A stretch of 33,854 bases of DNA, taken from positions 1 through 33,854 of the forward strand of contig LUCC01000002.1 in the NCBI GenBank assembly GCA_001593855.1. Reading direction: 5' to 3'. A model generated the notes under the pieces. It had not been told where the DNA came from and did not search any database. It saw only the letters and a list, made by a program, of their open reading frames with translations. A program made the position numbers and the translations under genes. Positions 14,138 through 25,537 of the stretch are shown here, piece after piece (the stretch's first letter is position 1; every line of letters begins with the position of its first letter). The stretch comes from Candidatus Hecatellales archaeon B24 (GTDB taxonomy: Archaea; Thermoproteota; Bathyarchaeia; Hecatellales; Hecatellaceae).

Positions 14138-14728
14138 TCAGCCTTCCCGCCCGCCTATTTCTGAAGACTCCTCCGAGATGGTTAACAGGGACTCGGCTAA
14201 GGCTTCCAAGTCAACTTCAGCCCTAGTCCTCCAGCCTACCGTTAAAACCTCGTTTTCATCCTCATGCAGGTATCCAAGCCTAACAAACCTGTCCAGTGCA
14301 ATATTAACTCTCCACGAGGGAAGCTTGGAGGAGAGAAGCCTTTCAACCTCACCCCTCGAAGCCTTACCCTGCCTAGAAGCCAAGTAGGCGAGGGTTGCTG
14401 CTAGGGCTGCAAGGTCGTCTATACGCCATCCTGAAGCCTGTGCGTCGGTGGCTGGGAGGCTGCCCCGCAGGGTTACTAGGAAGCGGGCTCTGTCAAGCTT
14501 TGCCTCTTCGTCTCCGCCAGCCTCCCCCGAAGCCTCCGGAACTATTTTAACTTGAAGCCCAAGCCTTTCAAGCTCGCTGTCCAGCAGCTTAACGATTTTC
14601 ATGTAGTTTTTCCCAAGGCTTTTCCGCAGTTCCCATCCTTTAACTCCAGGAGTTCTGTGCCTTTGGAAGAGGAGAAGCTGAGCAGCTCTTTTCACTCTCC
14701 TAGCGTAGGAAGCTTCTCCACCGCTCAC
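14138..14728 (-). CDS. Nse3/MAGE-like (KITE-type) tandem winged-helix protein
   Basis: 196 aa; ALAATLAYLASRQGKASRGEVERLLSS...LDRFVRLGYLHEDENEVLTVGWRTRAEVDLEALAESLLTI parallels the second winged helix of MAGE/Nse3 (..GNRASEEEL.., ..YLDY..., ..YEFLWGPRAxxETSKMKVLEF). Overlaps the upstream Nse4-like gene by 4 nt (ATGA). Confidence 0.65.
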   Translation of the reverse strand: MSGGEASYARRVKRAAQLLLFQRHRTPGVKGWELRKSLGKNYMKIVKLLDSELERLGLQVKIVPEASGEAGGDEEAKLDRARFLVTLRGSLPATDAQASGWRIDDLAALAATLAYLASRQGKASRGEVERLLSSKLPSWRVNIALDRFVRLGYLHEDENEVLTVGWRTRAEVDLEALAESLLTISEESSEIGGREG

Positions 14729-15525
14729 TCTTCCCCACCGCCAACCATGAATTTATCGAGCGGTATGGCTACGGAGTATTCTCCTTTAGGCTTTCCAGCG
14801 GTTTCAGGCGTCGGCTTAAGTTTAAGCTCGCCTTTAAGCCTGTCCAAGGTTAGCTGAACATAGCCGTAGGTTGCAAGAAAGCTTACCATGTAGGCTTTAA
14901 GCACGGTTTCCCTGAAGGTTTCAGCCCTGACAAAGTCCCAGTAGGATATTTCCCCTCCAGCCTTTTCGGCTTCGGCTGAAAGCTTCTGGAAGGTTTCCTC
15001 CAGCAATCTTCTGAAGTCCCCGCTGAGGGTTAAACCTAAAGCCTTAACGGTTTCAGGTGAAACCTCGGCTTCAACCATTCTGGGGGCTTCTAAGGCTTCC
15101 GGAGGGAGGCTTCTCGGTTTAAGCCTTACCCAGTAGGAGGCAGCCTCCTTAAGCCTTTCAAGAGTTAAAACCTCGATTTTAACGGTGGGCTTCCAAGCTT
15201 TGAGGAATACTTCGGCGAGCTGTGGAATGGTCAGCTCAGCAATCCTCGTCTTAACGGTTTCAGGATCTAAAATTCTAAGCTTACTCCTAACCCTAACCCA
15301 TTCGTCTTGAAGTTCCACGACCTTTGAAAGACTGCGTAAAGCTTCCCCGTCGAGGGTTAGGTCTGAAGGTTTCACCCAGGCGGGGAGGAGACTGCGTAAA
15401 GCTTCAAGCTCCTCTTTAACGTCAACTTCAAAGGGGTTGAAACCTTTAGCTTCAACCTCCCTGCACAGGTGCACTATTCTCAGAGCCCTGTCTCTGGCTT
15501 CGCTAAGGCTTGGCTTCTCCTTCAA
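14725..15525 (-). CDS. Nse4-like kleisin
   Basis: 266 aa; C-terminal ISYWDFVRAETFRETVLKAYMVSFLATYGYVQLTLDRLKGELKLKP parallels the Nse4 C-terminal pattern (FxFVIDPxSFxxTVENxFxVSFLxxDGxxxIxLD). Overlaps the start of the Nse3-like gene and the end of the SMC-like gene. Confidence 0.65.
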   Translation of the reverse strand: MKEKPSLSEARDRALRIVHLCREVEAKGFNPFEVDVKEELEALRSLLPAWVKPSDLTLDGEALRSLSKVVELQDEWVRVRSKLRILDPETVKTRIAELTIPQLAEVFLKAWKPTVKIEVLTLERLKEAASYWVRLKPRSLPPEALEAPRMVEAEVSPETVKALGLTLSGDFRRLLEETFQKLSAEAEKAGGEISYWDFVRAETFRETVLKAYMVSFLATYGYVQLTLDRLKGELKLKPTPETAGKPKGEYSVAIPLDKFMVGGGEE

Positions 15526-17440
15526 CCAGGGCTACCTCCGATTTTCCTCCAACCTTCTGGACGACTATGATTCTTGCCTCTTCGTCGAAGACTGGGTGAT
15601 GCCAGGGTGTAATCACTATATACTGGGTTTCAGGGTTGTCTCTAACGGTTTCAACTATAAGCCGTGCCACAGCCTCCCTGTTCTTAGGGTCCATGTGTAC
15701 GTCAAACTCGTCCACAGCCCTAATAGGGGAGGCAACATGCTCCTGGAGGGCTAGGAGGAAAGCCATAATGGTGGTAGACCTTTCCCCTCCACTCTGCGTG
15801 TAAGCGTCAAGCCTTACAGGAGGAACCCCATGGAAGCCCACCGTCAACTCTAAGCCAGCCTTCTCGAAGCTTTGAGAATTAACTATTCGAACCTCTCCCG
15901 TGGCTCCTATGGTTGAGAGAAGCCGCTGGTAGCCCTGGTTAATCTTGGAAACAACCTTCTCAAGCTTTCCAATCCAAACCTCTCTTCTCGCATCTATTTC
16001 CTCCAGGAGCTTCCGCTTGTTTTCTTCAAGGGCTTCTATTTTCTCCTTAAGCTCCTCGTATAGCCTTCTAAACTTCTCGTATACCTTCTCAACCCTTCTG
16101 GAGATGTCGGAGAGGGTGGAAAGGTGGATGTTCACTGTTTTAAGCTCTTCAGCTACCTCCGGCGGGCTTCTGCCAGTGTAGATTCTCGGGCCTACCTTTG
16201 CAGCTTCAGCCTTACCGATTTCAAGGTCTTCCCTAACCTTCTCCATTTCACGGTAGAGCCTTTTAAGCTGGGAATCCAGCTCTTTAAACTGGTATTCTAG
16301 GAGGGCTTCGGAAATCCCTGCCTCGACGAGTTTATCCCTAGCCCTGTCAAGCCTGTCTTCAAGGCTTGAAAGCTGCTCCTTAAGCTTCAGGGCTTCTGAA
16401 GCTAAAGCTTTAACCTCATCCTTCAAGGCTTCAGCTTTGCCCTTAAGGTTTTCAGCCGGCTGGAGCTTTGAAAGCTCTTCCGCCAGCCTTATCCAGCCTT
16501 CCCTTTCAGCCTTCTCCACTTCAACCTTTAAGAGGTTGTGATACCTGTTTTTGAGGTCAGCCTTGACCTTTTCAAATCCTTCCAACGCTTTTTTCCTAGA
16601 GGACTTAGCTTCCTCAAGCCTTGAGAAGGTTCTGTCTATCCGCTTTTTCAGTTTTTCAGCGTCTTCAACCATTCCTTCAAGCTGAGATTCAAGCTTTGAA
16701 ACGTGTGACCATGCTAGTTCGACTTCAAGGTTTTTCCGCTGCTCCATGAGCCTGAGCTTTTTAAGGTAGCGTTCATGCTGGCTTCTCCAGTAGGAAAGGT
16801 TTTCTTCAGCCTCCTTAAGCAGCTTCCCAACGGATTTCTCCTCGGAAAGGAGGGCTTCAAGCCTTGTTTGAGCTTCAAGAACCCTTTGCCTGTAGGGATG
16901 AAGCCCTATGGCTTCCTCCACCAGCTGAAGCCTCTGCTCAGGAGAAATTAAGGCGAACTCTTCAACCATGCCCTGATGCATGATTATAAGCATGTTGTCA
17001 GGGTTTATGCCGAAGCTTGAAAGCACACGCACCAGGTCGCCTTTAGCCACATGCTTATAGTCAGCTTCAAACCAGTAGGTTCCATCCTTTCTAAGGTAGC
17101 GGGTAAGCCTGAAAGTGTCGGCGGTGGAGGTTGGAACGGGACGTCTGCCCTTAACAGGCTTGTTGCTGAAGAGCAGGGTTATCCTGGCGAGGTCGGCCCC
17201 CCGCCTGATAAGGCCGCTAAGCCTCCTAGAACGTTCTGTGTGAGCCTGACCTAAAGCCACAGATAGGGCGAGGAGAATTGAGGATTTACCAGCACCGTTA
17301 GGCCCGCATACCAGATTTAACCCGGCTTTAAGGGGAATCCTCGCATACTCGTAGGACATGAAGTTCTCTAGGATAATCTCTTCTATAATGGTTTTAGGAG
17401 CCTCCACGGCTTCAACTTTTCTTAGAGCCTCTCCACTCAA
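15503..17440 (-). CDS. Smc5/6-like SMC-family ATPase, short, without an evident hinge domain
   Basis: 645 aa. Walker A GPNGAGKSS (17279-17305); N-head LIIMHQGMVEEFALISPEQRLQLVEEAIG; signature QSGGERST (from 15796 leftward); Walker B IRAVDEFDVHMDP; ETQYIVITPW. Coiled coil between heads, no CxxC hook. TTG start with GAGGAG ribosome-binding site. Confidence 0.85.
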   Translation of the reverse strand: MSGEALRKVEAVEAPKTIIEEIILENFMSYEYARIPLKAGLNLVCGPNGAGKSSILLALSVALGQAHTERSRRLSGLIRRGADLARITLLFSNKPVKGRRPVPTSTADTFRLTRYLRKDGTYWFEADYKHVAKGDLVRVLSSFGINPDNMLIIMHQGMVEEFALISPEQRLQLVEEAIGLHPYRQRVLEAQTRLEALLSEEKSVGKLLKEAEENLSYWRSQHERYLKKLRLMEQRKNLEVELAWSHVSKLESQLEGMVEDAEKLKKRIDRTFSRLEEAKSSRKKALEGFEKVKADLKNRYHNLLKVEVEKAEREGWIRLAEELSKLQPAENLKGKAEALKDEVKALASEALKLKEQLSSLEDRLDRARDKLVEAGISEALLEYQFKELDSQLKRLYREMEKVREDLEIGKAEAAKVGPRIYTGRSPPEVAEELKTVNIHLSTLSDISRRVEKVYEKFRRLYEELKEKIEALEENKRKLLEEIDARREVWIGKLEKVVSKINQGYQRLLSTIGATGEVRIVNSQSFEKAGLELTVGFHGVPPVRLDAYTQSGGERSTTIMAFLLALQEHVASPIRAVDEFDVHMDPKNREAVARLIVETVRDNPETQYIVITPWHHPVFDEEARIIVVQKVGGKSEVALVEGEAKP

Positions 17441-20461: not shown

Positions 20462-21151
20462 TTAGGCTGGCTGAGGAGCCGTTTTAACCTCTGCTGGAAG
20501 CTTCTGTCCAGCCATGGGGGGAGTTTCCTCTTCACCCGGCTTCCAGCCTTGCTCCTCGAACAGTTTTTCCAGCTGCCTCCTCATAAGCCTTAGGTCACGG
20601 CTTAGGTTAAAGTAGTCCGCGAAAATCTTCGTGGTTCTCAGAATACTTGTCTTGCCGAGTTTCTCCCTTTCCACGAGTCCCATTTCTAGGAGGCGTGCTA
20701 TATGCTGGTAGGCTTGAGGGCCTCTGACGCCTACAACCTTCGCCTGCGGGACAGGCTGCCTGTAGGCTATGTAGGATAAAGTTTTCAGAGGACCCTCCGT
20801 CAGCAGCGGCTTCAAGGTCAGCCTTTTAATCTTCTTGACGTATCGGGACTTAAGCTGCATGACGAATCTTCCGTCTTCCAGCTCAACGATTTCGAGGGCT
20901 CCACCTTTAACCCTGTAGCTTTCAGCCAGGCCTCTCGCTATCTCCGAGACCAGACGCTTCGAGGTTATGCCTGTTATGGAGCAGAGGGTTTTAGGTTCAA
21001 GCGGGTATCCTGAAGCGTAAAGGGCAGCCTCGATAAGCCTTCTGGCCTCCCTCTCATTTACAACCTTCTTAGGCTTCTCAGCCTTTGCAGGGGCTCCAGT
21101 TTTTTCAGGCTGTCCGGCTGCCGGGTTTTCAGGTTTCAAGCCTGCTTTCAC
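20462..21151 (-). CDS. scpB: Segregation and condensation protein ScpB
   Basis: EARRLIEAALYASGYPLEPKTLCSITG..; TEGPLKTLSYIAYRQPVPQAKVVGVRGPQAYQHIARLLEMGLVEREKLGKTSILRTTKIFADYF. Confidence 0.9.
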   Translation of the reverse strand: MKAGLKPENPAAGQPEKTGAPAKAEKPKKVVNEREARRLIEAALYASGYPLEPKTLCSITGITSKRLVSEIARGLAESYRVKGGALEIVELEDGRFVMQLKSRYVKKIKRLTLKPLLTEGPLKTLSYIAYRQPVPQAKVVGVRGPQAYQHIARLLEMGLVEREKLGKTSILRTTKIFADYFNLSRDLRLMRRQLEKLFEEQGWKPGEEETPPMAGQKLPAEVKTAPQPA

Positions 21152-21821
21152 CCTCCACGGCTTTAGACTTCAAAACTATTTTGATGTCTGAGAACTCTTC
21201 TGCCTGGTAGAGTTCTACAAGCCCCTTGGAAGCCATGAAGATTAGCATGAGAAATATTTTAACAATCTCCTTCCATGGTAGGCCTCCAGCAAGCTTTGAG
21301 AAGAGAACCTCGCCTTCCGGGATGCTTGCCTTAAGCTTATCGTAGAAGGTTTCCAGCTGCTGCTCCCATTGGAGAACCATTTTATCGTATTCGGTGAAGA
21401 GGTCTCCGGGCGGAGGCTCCAGCCGTTTAACCTTTACCAGGGCTCCAGCCTTCTCAGCCTTCAAGACCTCATCTAAAACGGCAAGTATGTCTTCAAGCCC
21501 TGTTACGGTCAGCTCAAAGCGGAAGGGAAGCTGGAGGGGTGGAGGAACATAGTCGAAGATGCGTTCAAAGCCTTTCTTCTCCTCTTCGATTTCAGCCTCG
21601 AAAATCCTTTCGGACTGAAGCCTTAGAACTATGCTGGAGGACAGGAGGGCTGTGCCTGAAGCGTTGAAGTCTACGTAGCCCATCTGCTTCATTTCCTTGA
21701 GGAAGCTTGAAAGCAGCGTTGCTATGTTTAAGTCCCATGGTCTCACCTTGCTGAGCCTCGCCAGGTCGAAGAGAACCTGCCAAGGAGGCTTAAGCCAGAA
21801 AGGCTTTTTTTCGCTGCTCAT
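21129..21821 (-). CDS. scpA: Segregation and condensation protein ScpA (kleisin)
   Basis: PPWQVLFDLARLSKVRPWDLNIATLLSSFLKEMKQMGYVDFNASGTALLSSSIVLRLQSERIF; C-terminal VLFSKLAGGLPWKEIVKIFLMLIFMASKGLVELYQAEEFSDIKI. Confidence 0.9.
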   Translation of the reverse strand: MSSEKKPFWLKPPWQVLFDLARLSKVRPWDLNIATLLSSFLKEMKQMGYVDFNASGTALLSSSIVLRLQSERIFEAEIEEEKKGFERIFDYVPPPLQLPFRFELTVTGLEDILAVLDEVLKAEKAGALVKVKRLEPPPGDLFTEYDKMVLQWEQQLETFYDKLKASIPEGEVLFSKLAGGLPWKEIVKIFLMLIFMASKGLVELYQAEEFSDIKIVLKSKAVEGESRLET

Positions 21822-21840
21822 CTGCTTCCTTTAACCTCCT

Positions 21841-24800
21841 CTAACTTACCTTGCTTACCTCCGCAACCTTGGCTGGAAGGGTGTGCACGTAGGACACCCC
21901 GTTCCTGGCGTAAACTCCGAAGAGCCTGTCCGCTCGGGAGGCCATGGGCTCCTTGAAGCTGATAACTATCATCTGAGCCCTCTTAGACTCTCTTGCCAGC
22001 AGCTCAGCCAGCCTTCCAGTGTTCACAGGATCTAAATGAGCGTCCACTTCGTCGAAAATATAGAAGGGGGAAGTTCTGGTGAGGCTTTGCAGGGCGAAAA
22101 TGTAGCATACGGATACCACGGATTTTTCTCCTCCGCTTAGGGCGGTAACAGGCATTGGAGGTTTCCCTGGGAACTCGACTATGAGGTCTAGGCCTCCGCT
22201 GAAAGGGTCTTCAGGGTTTTGAAGCTGAACCCAGCCTCTTCCACCCGTTATAGCGTTAAAGGTTTCAGCAAACCTTTGGTTAAGCTTTTCTAGGGCTGCG
22301 TAGAAGGCTTCCTTCTTCTCTTTTTCCACAGCCTCTATGAAGCGTAGGATCTCGCTTTTCTCCTCTTCAAGCTTGTTTATTTTCGCTGAAAGCCCCTTAT
22401 AGTCTCTTTTCTGAGGCTCGTAAAGGGCTGGAGCGTTCATGTTAAGCTGACTGTAAAGCCTTTCCCTTTCCTCTTCAAGCCTTCCCATCAGCATGTCTGA
22501 AAGCTTAACCTCAACCGTGGAAAGCTTTAAAGGCCTCTCGAAGCCGAGTTCTTTAAGCTCCTTAAGACACTCCTCATATTCTATTTGAAGGCGGAGCCTA
22601 CGCTCCTTTAACTCGTTAAGCTTCCCCTCCATCTTCCTTATTTCTTCTATAAGCCTCCCGTAGTCTTCATCTATCTTTTTCAGGGTGTCACCGAAACGTT
22701 TGTACTCCTCTCTTCTAGAGGCCATAAGCTCTGTAAGCTTGTCCCTTTCAGCTATAAGCTCCTTGATGGAGGAGTCTATGCCTGATATTTCAGCTAGGGT
22801 GTCCTCTTCAAGTTTAAGCTGGCGTTTAAGCTCTCTTTCAAGGCCTGTTAGCTCCTTTCTAACCGTGACAAGGTTCGGGGTGTAAACGGTTTCGAAGGTG
22901 TCCTGCAGAGACCTAAGCCTGTTGTCAACCTCGTTAAGCCTCTTGGAGAACTCTACGACTTCGGCTTCCAGCTGGGCTTTTTCGCTTTCAAGCCCTGTTA
23001 CGTATTCAGGTCTAACCTTCGCCCTAAGCCTTTCAGCCTCGCTTCTAAGCTTTGAAAGCTCGGCTTCTAGGGCTGCCTTTCCACCTTCAACCTCGTTTAT
23101 GAGGGACCTTGACTTTTCAAGCCTCCTGTTCAGAGACTCAATCTTCCTGTTAGCCTCCGATATGAGCCTCCTATTCCTCGAAAGATTATTCTTCATGGTT
23201 TCCTCTTCAGCGTCAAAGAATTTGAGGCTGTCCTCATGTCGAACCCTTTCGGATTCAAGTCTGACCAGCTCCTTTCTAAGCCTCTCCAAGTCGGCTCTAC
23301 GCCTTTCAAGAAGCTTCTCGAAGGTTACAACGGTTTCACCTACGGCGTCTATGGTTTTATCGCTGGGAACCACCTCTGAAAGGTCTATGGGCTCCCTATA
23401 GAAGCCCACCGTAAGCCTGGGTCCAGGCTCGAAAACCTCGCCTTCAACCGTTACAGCCCTGAAACCGGCTTTAGAAGCCTTCAAAGCAGCTTCAGCCGTG
23501 GAAGCAAGGAAAGTGTCGCCTAAAATGAAGTTTAAGGCTGGCTTAAACTTTGAGGAGGCATCCACGAGGGAGGCCAGCGAGCCTACTAGTCCTTCAATTT
23601 TAGGTTTGGACACCGGCTTTATGTTTCTGGCTTCTGAAAGCGGGATAATCTTGATTCTCCCAATCTTGGTCCGCTTAAGACTTTCAGCACACTTCTTAAC
23701 GATGTCTAGGTTTTCAACCACTAGCGCCTGAAGCCATCCTTCCGCTGCAGCCTCAACCGCCTGCCTGTACCTGGGAGGAATCCTGATACGCTTTCTAAGC
23801 CTTCCGTGGACGCCTCTGAGAGCTCCCATAGAGGCTAGGCTTTCAATCAGGCTTAAAGCCTTCTCCTCGGAGAGAACTCTTTCGGCTAGGTCTTTCTTGG
23901 ACTTGAAGGCTGTGACGTTCAGCTTAGCCTTCTTAACCACGCCTTCAGCCTTTCTAATCTCGTCTTCAGCCCGTGCCATCTGCTCTTTAACCCGTTCTAT
24001 CGCGTTAACTGTTTCTTCAAGGCTTTTCTCTTCTTTGCGTCTGAACTCTCTAAGCTTCTCAAGCCTTTGGGCTAGGTTGCTGAAGATTTCCTCCAGCGAC
24101 CTTCTTTTGTCTTCTATGGAGGCTATCTGGCTGATTATGCTGTTCTCCCTCTCTTTTTCACCCCTGATTTTCAGGTAGAGCTTTCCCCTTTCCGACTCAA
24201 GCCCTTTAATTTTCTTCTCCAGCTCCCTTAGGGCTGAAGCGTTAGTATCGAGGTTAAGCCTGATATCGGAAATCTTCTCCTTGATACGCTCTATTTTCTT
24301 CTGTCTCTCGGAAAGGTAGGCCTCCAACTCCTCTTTTTCTCTAACCAGCCTTCTAAGCTCCTTCTTTGCTTCCGAAGCCTGGGTTTTAAGTCTTTCCAGC
24401 TGCGCCCGCTTTTCATCCCTTCTAGCTTCAAGGTTTCTGGTGGCAGACCGGATGGAGGACAGCGTTGACTTGCGGACGGCTAGCACGGCGTTCAGGTTTC
24501 CAAGCTGAGCTTGAAGGTGAACAAGCCTGTCTCCACCCTTATCTACGACTTCCCTTGCATACTCACCGTATTCATCTTGAACCCTTCGTCTTTCAGCTTC
24601 AAGCTGGCTTCTTCTCCCTTCCAGCTCGCCTATCTGGGAGGTTAGGTTTTCTACGGCTGACTGAACTTCTTCAAGGTTCTCGAAAAGCGATTTGGCTTTA
24701 ACGGAGAGCCTTACAGCCTTGAACCTGTTGATGAGGTCTGAAAGGTAGTTGTAGCTGAGAACTATGTTTCTCCCGGTTTCCAGCTCTGTAACCCTCAACT

Positions 24801-25395
24801 TTACTTCCTCGTATTTTCCGCGGGCAACCTTAATGTTAACTTCAGCCTCTCTAAGCTCTACTTCAGCTTCTTTACGCTTCCGGTCGTATTCCGCTATTCC
24901 TATGATTTGCTCTACAGCCTTCCTTCTCTCCTCCGGGGGGCTTTCAGCAATCCGGATGGTGGTTCCCTGGAAGACTATGTTCATTCCTCCGGTAAGCGAA
25001 GCCATGGAAAGCATGTCCACTAGGACGTTCCACGAATACTTCATGCCGTTAACTTTGAGGGTGCTGGAGCCGTCAGGAGATACGCTTCTGGTTATGACCA
25101 CATCGTCAGAGTCTATGGGGATCTTCCTGTCAACATTGTCTATGTGGATGGTTACCGTAGCCCTTCTCGCCTTCTGGTAGTCGCTGTTTCCGCTGAAAAG
25201 CAGGTCTGGAAAGCTTTTCACCCTCAGCGACCTTGTGCTTCTTTCGCCTAGAACAAACTGTACGGCGTCTACGATGTTGCTTTTACCTGAACCGTTAGGG
25301 CCGACGATAACGTTCAGCCCCTTATCGAAGGTTAACACTGTCTTACGTGCGAAGGTTTTGAAGCCTGAAAGCTCCAGCCTTTTGATGAGAACCAT
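21841..25395 (-). CDS. smc: Chromosome segregation protein SMC (canonical)
   Basis: MVLIKRLELSGFKTFARKTVLTFDKGLNVIVGPNGSGKSNIVDAVQFVLGE; hinge ASMGALRGVHGRLRKRIRIPPRYRQAVEAAAEGWLQALVVE; LSGGEKSVVSVCYIFALQ; YIFDEVDAHLDPVNTGRLAELL. ORF track starts at 25467, but ATG 25395 gives the canonical N-terminus. Confidence 0.96.
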   Translation of the reverse strand: MVLIKRLELSGFKTFARKTVLTFDKGLNVIVGPNGSGKSNIVDAVQFVLGERSTRSLRVKSFPDLLFSGNSDYQKARRATVTIHIDNVDRKIPIDSDDVVITRSVSPDGSSTLKVNGMKYSWNVLVDMLSMASLTGGMNIVFQGTTIRIAESPPEERRKAVEQIIGIAEYDRKRKEAEVELREAEVNIKVARGKYEEVKLRVTELETGRNIVLSYNYLSDLINRFKAVRLSVKAKSLFENLEEVQSAVENLTSQIGELEGRRSQLEAERRRVQDEYGEYAREVVDKGGDRLVHLQAQLGNLNAVLAVRKSTLSSIRSATRNLEARRDEKRAQLERLKTQASEAKKELRRLVREKEELEAYLSERQKKIERIKEKISDIRLNLDTNASALRELEKKIKGLESERGKLYLKIRGEKERENSIISQIASIEDKRRSLEEIFSNLAQRLEKLREFRRKEEKSLEETVNAIERVKEQMARAEDEIRKAEGVVKKAKLNVTAFKSKKDLAERVLSEEKALSLIESLASMGALRGVHGRLRKRIRIPPRYRQAVEAAAEGWLQALVVENLDIVKKCAESLKRTKIGRIKIIPLSEARNIKPVSKPKIEGLVGSLASLVDASSKFKPALNFILGDTFLASTAEAALKASKAGFRAVTVEGEVFEPGPRLTVGFYREPIDLSEVVPSDKTIDAVGETVVTFEKLLERRRADLERLRKELVRLESERVRHEDSLKFFDAEEETMKNNLSRNRRLISEANRKIESLNRRLEKSRSLINEVEGGKAALEAELSKLRSEAERLRAKVRPEYVTGLESEKAQLEAEVVEFSKRLNEVDNRLRSLQDTFETVYTPNLVTVRKELTGLERELKRQLKLEEDTLAEISGIDSSIKELIAERDKLTELMASRREEYKRFGDTLKKIDEDYGRLIEEIRKMEGKLNELKERRLRLQIEYEECLKELKELGFERPLKLSTVEVKLSDMLMGRLEEERERLYSQLNMNAPALYEPQKRDYKGLSAKINKLEEEKSEILRFIEAVEKEKKEAFYAALEKLNQRFAETFNAITGGRGWVQLQNPEDPFSGGLDLIVEFPGKPPMPVTALSGGEKSVVSVCYIFALQSLTRTSPFYIFDEVDAHLDPVNTGRLAELLARESKRAQMIVISFKEPMASRADRLFGVYARNGVSYVHTLPAKVAEVSKVS

Positions 25396-25537
25396 GACAA
25401 AAGATAATAGCTTAATTGTTAAATTAAAGGTTAATATCCTAATTCTTGGTAAGTATACATCAATCAAACATTATATTTATGCATGAAATTCGAAAGATAG
25501 AAGGCTTATCCTGAAGCTAACTTGGAGGAAAAAGCCC
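25396..25537. promoter_or_regulatory. AT-rich divergent intergenic region between smc (-) and pepQ-like (+)
   Basis: Markedly AT-rich 142 bp between divergent genes; TATA-like TTATATTTAT at 25471-25480 for the + strand gene. Confidence 0.5.

Follow-up and report, generated by a model that had tools for sequence, protein, structure and literature searches.

A conserved archaeal operon predicted to encode an Smc5/6-type complex with Nse4-like and Nse1/Nse3-type partners

The MAGE/Nse3 lineage is normally regarded as eukaryotic. An earlier note described a gene at positions 14138..14728 (-) of a 33,854-nucleotide stretch of archaeal DNA, the window analyzed here, as encoding a MAGE/Nse3-like protein, which raises the question of whether it belongs to this lineage or is another kind of winged-helix protein. 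The DNA belongs to a member of the archaeal Bathyarchaeia, as the named relatives of a neighboring gene are Candidatus Hecatellales and other Bathyarchaeota. Inspection of the sequence bore out the open reading frame (196 amino acids, GTG start) and every peptide quoted from it. Of 61 related genomes, 47 contain homologues, with identities down to ~42%, and an alignment of 26 sequences contained 23 invariant columns. This distribution, the invariant columns, and the constancy of the upstream neighbors establish the frame as a real, conserved gene.

The gene is the last of three overlapping minus-strand genes. The first (15503..17440 (-)) encodes a 645-amino-acid SMC ATPase of the Smc5/6 type with a short coiled coil and no hinge, referred to here as the mini-SMC, and overlaps by 23 bp with the gene of an Nse4-like kleisin (14725..15525 (-), 266 amino acids), which in turn overlaps by 4 bp with the third gene. 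The listed start is TTG for both the kleisin and the mini-SMC gene, and the true starts may differ; a sigma-70 promoter scan of the window has no meaning in an archaeal genome. The product of the third gene is predicted to contain tandem winged helices and is encoded alongside a kleisin and an SMC, and can be assigned to the KITE superfamily. The SMC-kleisin-KITE order was observed in all same-class relatives' loci in which the contig reaches far enough. Outside the class, 20 loci of the phylum were compared: 17 showed exactly this order, one carried the kleisin and KITE genes close by but in reverse orientation, and two had an SMC without adjoining kleisin and KITE genes. At E <= 1e-40, the mini-SMC ATPase was detected in 130 of 300 sampled genomes of the phylum, corresponding to 60 of the 127 genera in this sample. 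The operon is thus retained across Bathyarchaeia and other Thermoproteota.

Several other genes recur in its surroundings. An Lhr-type helicase is encoded near the operon at 11 loci, mostly outside the class of the window (e.g., L141:8049-10925 (-)), a faint hint that would be compatible with a role of the operon in repair or recombination. A conserved protein of ~225 amino acids is encoded near the mini-SMC gene at 16 of 41 loci across classes, mostly divergently in a head-to-head arrangement (e.g., L150:3832-4542 (-)); in the genome of the window it lies away from the operon (G000:C6:15581-16267), and the member scanned, from locus L047, had no Pfam match. In several Bathyarchaeia (L040, L041, and L044), the KITE gene is directly followed by Snf7/ESCRT-III-like genes, the Pfam Snf7 match of which (E 0.0019) is below the cut-off. 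Genome G057 contains two KITE copies, and several relatives carry two ScpB genes (listed together with G057: G011, G016, G034, G037, G038, and G030); some of these additional copies may stem from contamination.

The window KITE protein had no Pfam match on its own sequence, and NCBIfam returned nothing relevant for it or for the kleisin. Among its homologues, the Pfam MAGE family was matched by 2 of 26 close sequences (best E 0.057) and 6 of 18 distant sequences (best E 2.8e-4), and was the most frequent family in the latter, followed by SMC_Nse1 (4 of 18, best E 0.015). The curated cut-off of the MAGE family (PF01454) is 25 bits; a homologue from locus L132 scored 18.0 bits, and the window protein went unmatched. 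ScpB (PF04079) was absent among the families listed for the 44 close and distant homologues. In a control scan, 25 archaeal ScpB proteins matched ScpB throughout, and their listed families included neither MAGE nor Nse1. The scan of the distant homologues was thus led by MAGE and Nse1 and not by a generic or ScpB-like winged helix, the outcome that the earlier note had named as fatal to its claim. The profile-profile comparison that it had proposed did recover MAGE (E 0.011 over 168 columns), but ScpB as well (E 0.005 over 80 columns, and E 0.013 in a second comparison), the ScpB alignment spanning one winged helix only; the scores were weak for MAGE, NSE1, and ScpB, and the alignments used were shallow, with 6 sequences for MAGE and 2 for NSE1. 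The KITE profile found no relevant match among PDB sequences, and searching the genome of the window for the MAGE family was uninformative, because no control genome gave a match. As judged from alignments and MAGE sequences, the motif WRTRAE (consensus WRxxAE; 14216..14233 (-)), with which the second winged helix ends, sits in the position of the MAGE 'WGPRA..E', to which it may be equivalent.

The AF2 model of the KITE protein (pLDDT 82, pTM 0.70) consists of two winged helices. Its first Foldseek match was Xenopus Nse3 (E 9e-6, TM 0.62), followed by human NSE1, human MAGE-G1, Xenopus Nse1 (E 2.3e-4), and, in fifth place, JetB; MAGE-A4 and yeast Nse3 came next, and MukE and ScpB ranked lower. 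For the yeast pair, the values were 1.8e-3 for Nse3 and 3.3e-2 for Nse1, chains 7qcd_E and 7ymd_C being assigned to Nse3 on the grounds that Nse1 corresponds to 7qcd_D and 7ymd_B. The identities of the eukaryotic chains were established by sequence comparison, and the sequences used were afterwards checked against the PDB chains. MAGE-G1 and yeast Nse3, which the earlier note had singled out for a fold comparison, hence both placed above MukE and ScpB. The predicted tandem winged helices appear most similar to MAGE/Nse3, with Nse1 close behind.

Taken together, fold, family scans, and gene context support an Nse1/Nse3-type KITE, a label that is safer than MAGE proper. The resemblance to the MAGE homology domain that had been read from the sequence is found in distant homologues and in the predicted fold, but does not emerge from the window protein alone. 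The preference for a MAGE/Nse3 relative over an ScpB/MukE-type KITE was well placed, with MAGE leading in Pfam, Nse3 leading in Foldseek, and an Nse4-type kleisin encoded next to it. The wording 'direct MAGE relative' is apt as far as an Nse1/Nse3-type KITE is meant; it is too narrow in that fold, Pfam, and profiles do not separate MAGE/Nse3 from Nse1. Because the two are inseparable, an age greater than that of the Nse1/Nse3 split fits best, and the lineage of the KITE most likely branched off ahead of the duplication that gave rise to Nse1 and Nse3. It is possible, though rather unlikely, that the protein is a true Nse3/MAGE orthologue that postdates this split, with Nse1 having been added separately by eukaryotes. 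Such orthology would agree with the better Foldseek values of Nse3 over Nse1 in both Xenopus and yeast, with the more numerous and stronger Pfam matches to MAGE, and with a KITE protein that has no RING domain; however, human NSE1 ranks above MAGE-G1, several homologues match Nse1, and the pairwise profile scores are weak for both MAGE and Nse1.

The kleisin was recognized through its homologues. Pfam Nse4_C was recognized in 22 of 25 sequences of one set and in 13 of 18 of another (35 of 43; best E 5.7e-6) and was the sole recurring family, and the ScpA family was absent among those listed. The window kleisin itself matched Nse4_C only below the cut-off (E 0.12). The kleisin profile retrieved yeast Nse4 (E 2.7e-4) and human NSE4B/EID3 (E 1e-3). 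In the model, which is of low overall confidence (pTM 0.37), a helical N-terminal region predicted with confidence is connected through a disordered middle to a C-terminal winged helix. Its best Foldseek match was the C-terminal domain of ScpA bound to the Smc head, with yeast Nse4 next, and the fold also resembles the C-terminal domains of Scc1. The Nse4_C-like winged helix (14815..14949 (-)), supported by the Pfam match (residues 193-237), an own-genome match, and Foldseek, is predicted to bind the SMC head. Judging by the many members that match Nse4_C, this family corresponds to the Nse4-type kleisin of Smc5/6.

The affiliation of the ATPase was clear. The best ten PDB matches of the mini-SMC profile were all Smc5 or Smc6 (E 3e-62 to 1e-49), the top canonical SMC appeared at 1e-43, and Rad50 structures scored far below Smc5/6; an independent profile from other classes gave the same ranking, the best ten matches of the two profiles spanning about E 1e-50 to 1e-67. 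As a control, the profile of the window's canonical SMC retrieved prokaryotic SMC and SMC1-4, with no Smc5/6 among 53 matches. In a head-domain tree, in which SMC1-4 were represented by Smc2 only, the archaeal mini-SMC sequences, yeast and human Smc5, and yeast Smc6 were separated from canonical SMC and Smc2 with a UFBoot support of 100. Yeast Smc6 formed a very long branch inside the archaeal group, where its placement had a weak support of 49 and is most likely an artefact, and the archaeal clade had a support of 100 in the tree without it. The Walker A motif GPNGAGKS (17282..17305 (-)) and the ABC signature SGGER (15779..15793 (-)), the latter inside QSGGERS as in Smc5, were identified in the alignment. 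The Walker B/D-loop RAVDEFDVHMDPKNRE (15674..15721 (-)) is of the Smc5/6 type; the corresponding sequences are RVVDEINQGMDPINER in human SMC5, ALDEFDVFMDQVNRK in yeast Smc6, and IFDEVDAHLDPVNTG in the canonical SMC of this genome. The mini-SMC had no SMC_hinge match, whereas the canonical SMC of the window matched this family at E 1.3e-25. Since its 645 amino acids include a single cysteine, a zinc hook is absent. Sequence comparison thus indicates that the ATPase groups with Smc5/Smc6, and not with canonical SMC or with SMC1-4, as represented in the tree by Smc2.

On the basis of sequence and models, we consider it very probable (about 0.87) that this operon specifies the core subunits of an archaeal complex of the Smc5/6 type. 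With the eukaryotic core (Smc5-Smc6-Nse4-Nse1-Nse3), this complex would share an Smc5/6-type head, an Nse4-type kleisin, and an Nse1/Nse3-type KITE; with the MAGE homology domain of Nse3 (PF01454), its KITE would share tandem winged helices, an Nse4-like kleisin as a neighbor, and a W..RA.E-like motif ending the second domain. The two also differ. The archaeal operon has one SMC gene in place of the Smc5-Smc6 pair, although this genome is incomplete and may contain a distant second copy elsewhere, and the single SMC most likely predates the Smc5/Smc6 duplication. There is likewise one KITE gene, as opposed to Nse1 with its RING and Nse3, the operon includes no RING gene, and the archaeal KITE has no known RING partner. 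In addition, the archaeal SMC measures only about 570-760 amino acids and lacks the hinge, and Nse2, Nse5, and Nse6 were not seen in the operon.

A canonical SMC, ScpA, and ScpB are encoded on the same strand at 20462-25467 (-), ~3 kb upstream of the mini-SMC operon, and a comparable layout was observed at locus L032 from the same family. Both sets of genes encode SMC-kleisin-KITE triads, and the mini-SMC operon might accordingly be a divergent second Smc-ScpA-ScpB condensin, its Smc5/6 likeness being due to convergence or retained ancestral traits. The KITE profile does score ScpB as well as MAGE, and the best Foldseek match of the kleisin is a ScpA domain. We nevertheless regard this as very improbable: the ATPase is clearly of the Smc5/6 type, with a clean reciprocal control and full UFBoot support; no ScpA or ScpB was listed for the members, whereas true ScpB was recognized at E 6e-32; and the ScpB alignment is limited to one winged helix of the KITE. 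The canonical triad differs further in its distinct ATPase clade, its hinge, and the recognition of its ScpA and ScpB by their own families.

An SMC-based defense system of the Wadjet or Lamassu kind, directed against plasmids or viruses, is even harder to reconcile with the data. JetB is among the Foldseek matches of the KITE, and the ATPase matches PADLOC mad3, LmuB, and JetC, as SMC-family heads do; the window KITE and kleisin, however, have no PADLOC match, no JetD-like nuclease recurs beside the operon, and most genomes of the class carry the operon in a fixed gene order, a distribution that is not patchy. This reading was rejected. The least probable alternative, three independent proteins comprising a RecF/Rad50-like repair ATPase and two winged-helix regulators, would agree with an SMC that lacks a hinge, as Rad50 does, and with the two loci at which kleisin and KITE are missing, but not with the overlapping genes in fixed order, the low scores of Rad50 structures, or a protein that matches Nse4 and has the architecture of a kleisin, with helices in its N-terminal region and a winged helix that binds the head.

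The proposed archaeal Smc5/6-type complex can be outlined by analogy with better known systems. Two SMC copies would dimerize with ATP sandwiched between their heads. Kleisin bridging in SMC5/6 is asymmetric (PMC7297730), and the archaeal kleisin would similarly contact the neck of one SMC through its N-terminal helices and the head of the other through its C-terminal winged helix. The kleisin middle would be gripped by two KITE copies; since the operon has one KITE gene and one SMC gene, both proteins probably form homodimers. DNA clamping in yeast Smc5/6 is mostly performed by Nse3 (PMC10512200), and the two KITE copies may clamp double-stranded DNA atop the engaged heads in the same manner, with ATP hydrolysis opening and resetting the clamp. 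Short arms and the absence of a hinge would make a DNA clamp or a short-step translocator likelier than a long-loop extruder. Canonical ScpB occurs in all but three of 41 relatives (38), so that the operon adds a further SMC system instead of substituting for the canonical one; its role is probably in genome maintenance, in parallel with SMC-ScpAB.

Part of this picture has precedents. ASRP, of the coalescin/Sph family, is also an archaeal SMC-related ATPase of similar length, and its genes have no consistent neighbors (PMC9389158); membership of the mini-SMC in ASRP was rejected, as it scored 52.7 bits against NF045487 (cut-off 300) and has no zinc hook. 'SMC5/6-related' archaeal SMCs that group with SMC5/6 in trees are already on record (PMC9389158, citing a 2021 paper), and the mini-SMC ATPase probably belongs to them. 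Under prokaryotic KITE complexes, a 2023 review listed only Smc-ScpAB and MukBEF/MksBEF/Wadjet (PMC10512200). Searches of the open literature, which leaves aside subscription journals and most preprints, turned up no description of Nse4 or Nse3/MAGE partners in archaea. Within the limits of this incomplete search, the novelty lies in these partners, archaeal Smc5/6-related ATPases having been described before.

The coexistence of canonical SMC-ScpAB with an archaeal Smc5/6-type ATPase that has dedicated Nse4 and KITE partners points to a separate, old branch, and suggests that an Smc5/6 core with a MAGE-like subunit is older than eukaryotes. We see even odds that a hinge-less, homodimeric Smc5/6-Nse4-KITE complex across Thermoproteota represents the root, within archaea, of the Smc5/6 core of eukaryotes, with a KITE and an SMC that precede the respective duplications and a separation from canonical SMC that took place before eukaryotes. 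If this is true, the origin of the MAGE/Nse3 lineage moves outside eukaryotes. The operon offers a three-protein minimal system for biochemistry and makes the question of Smc5/6 origin testable.
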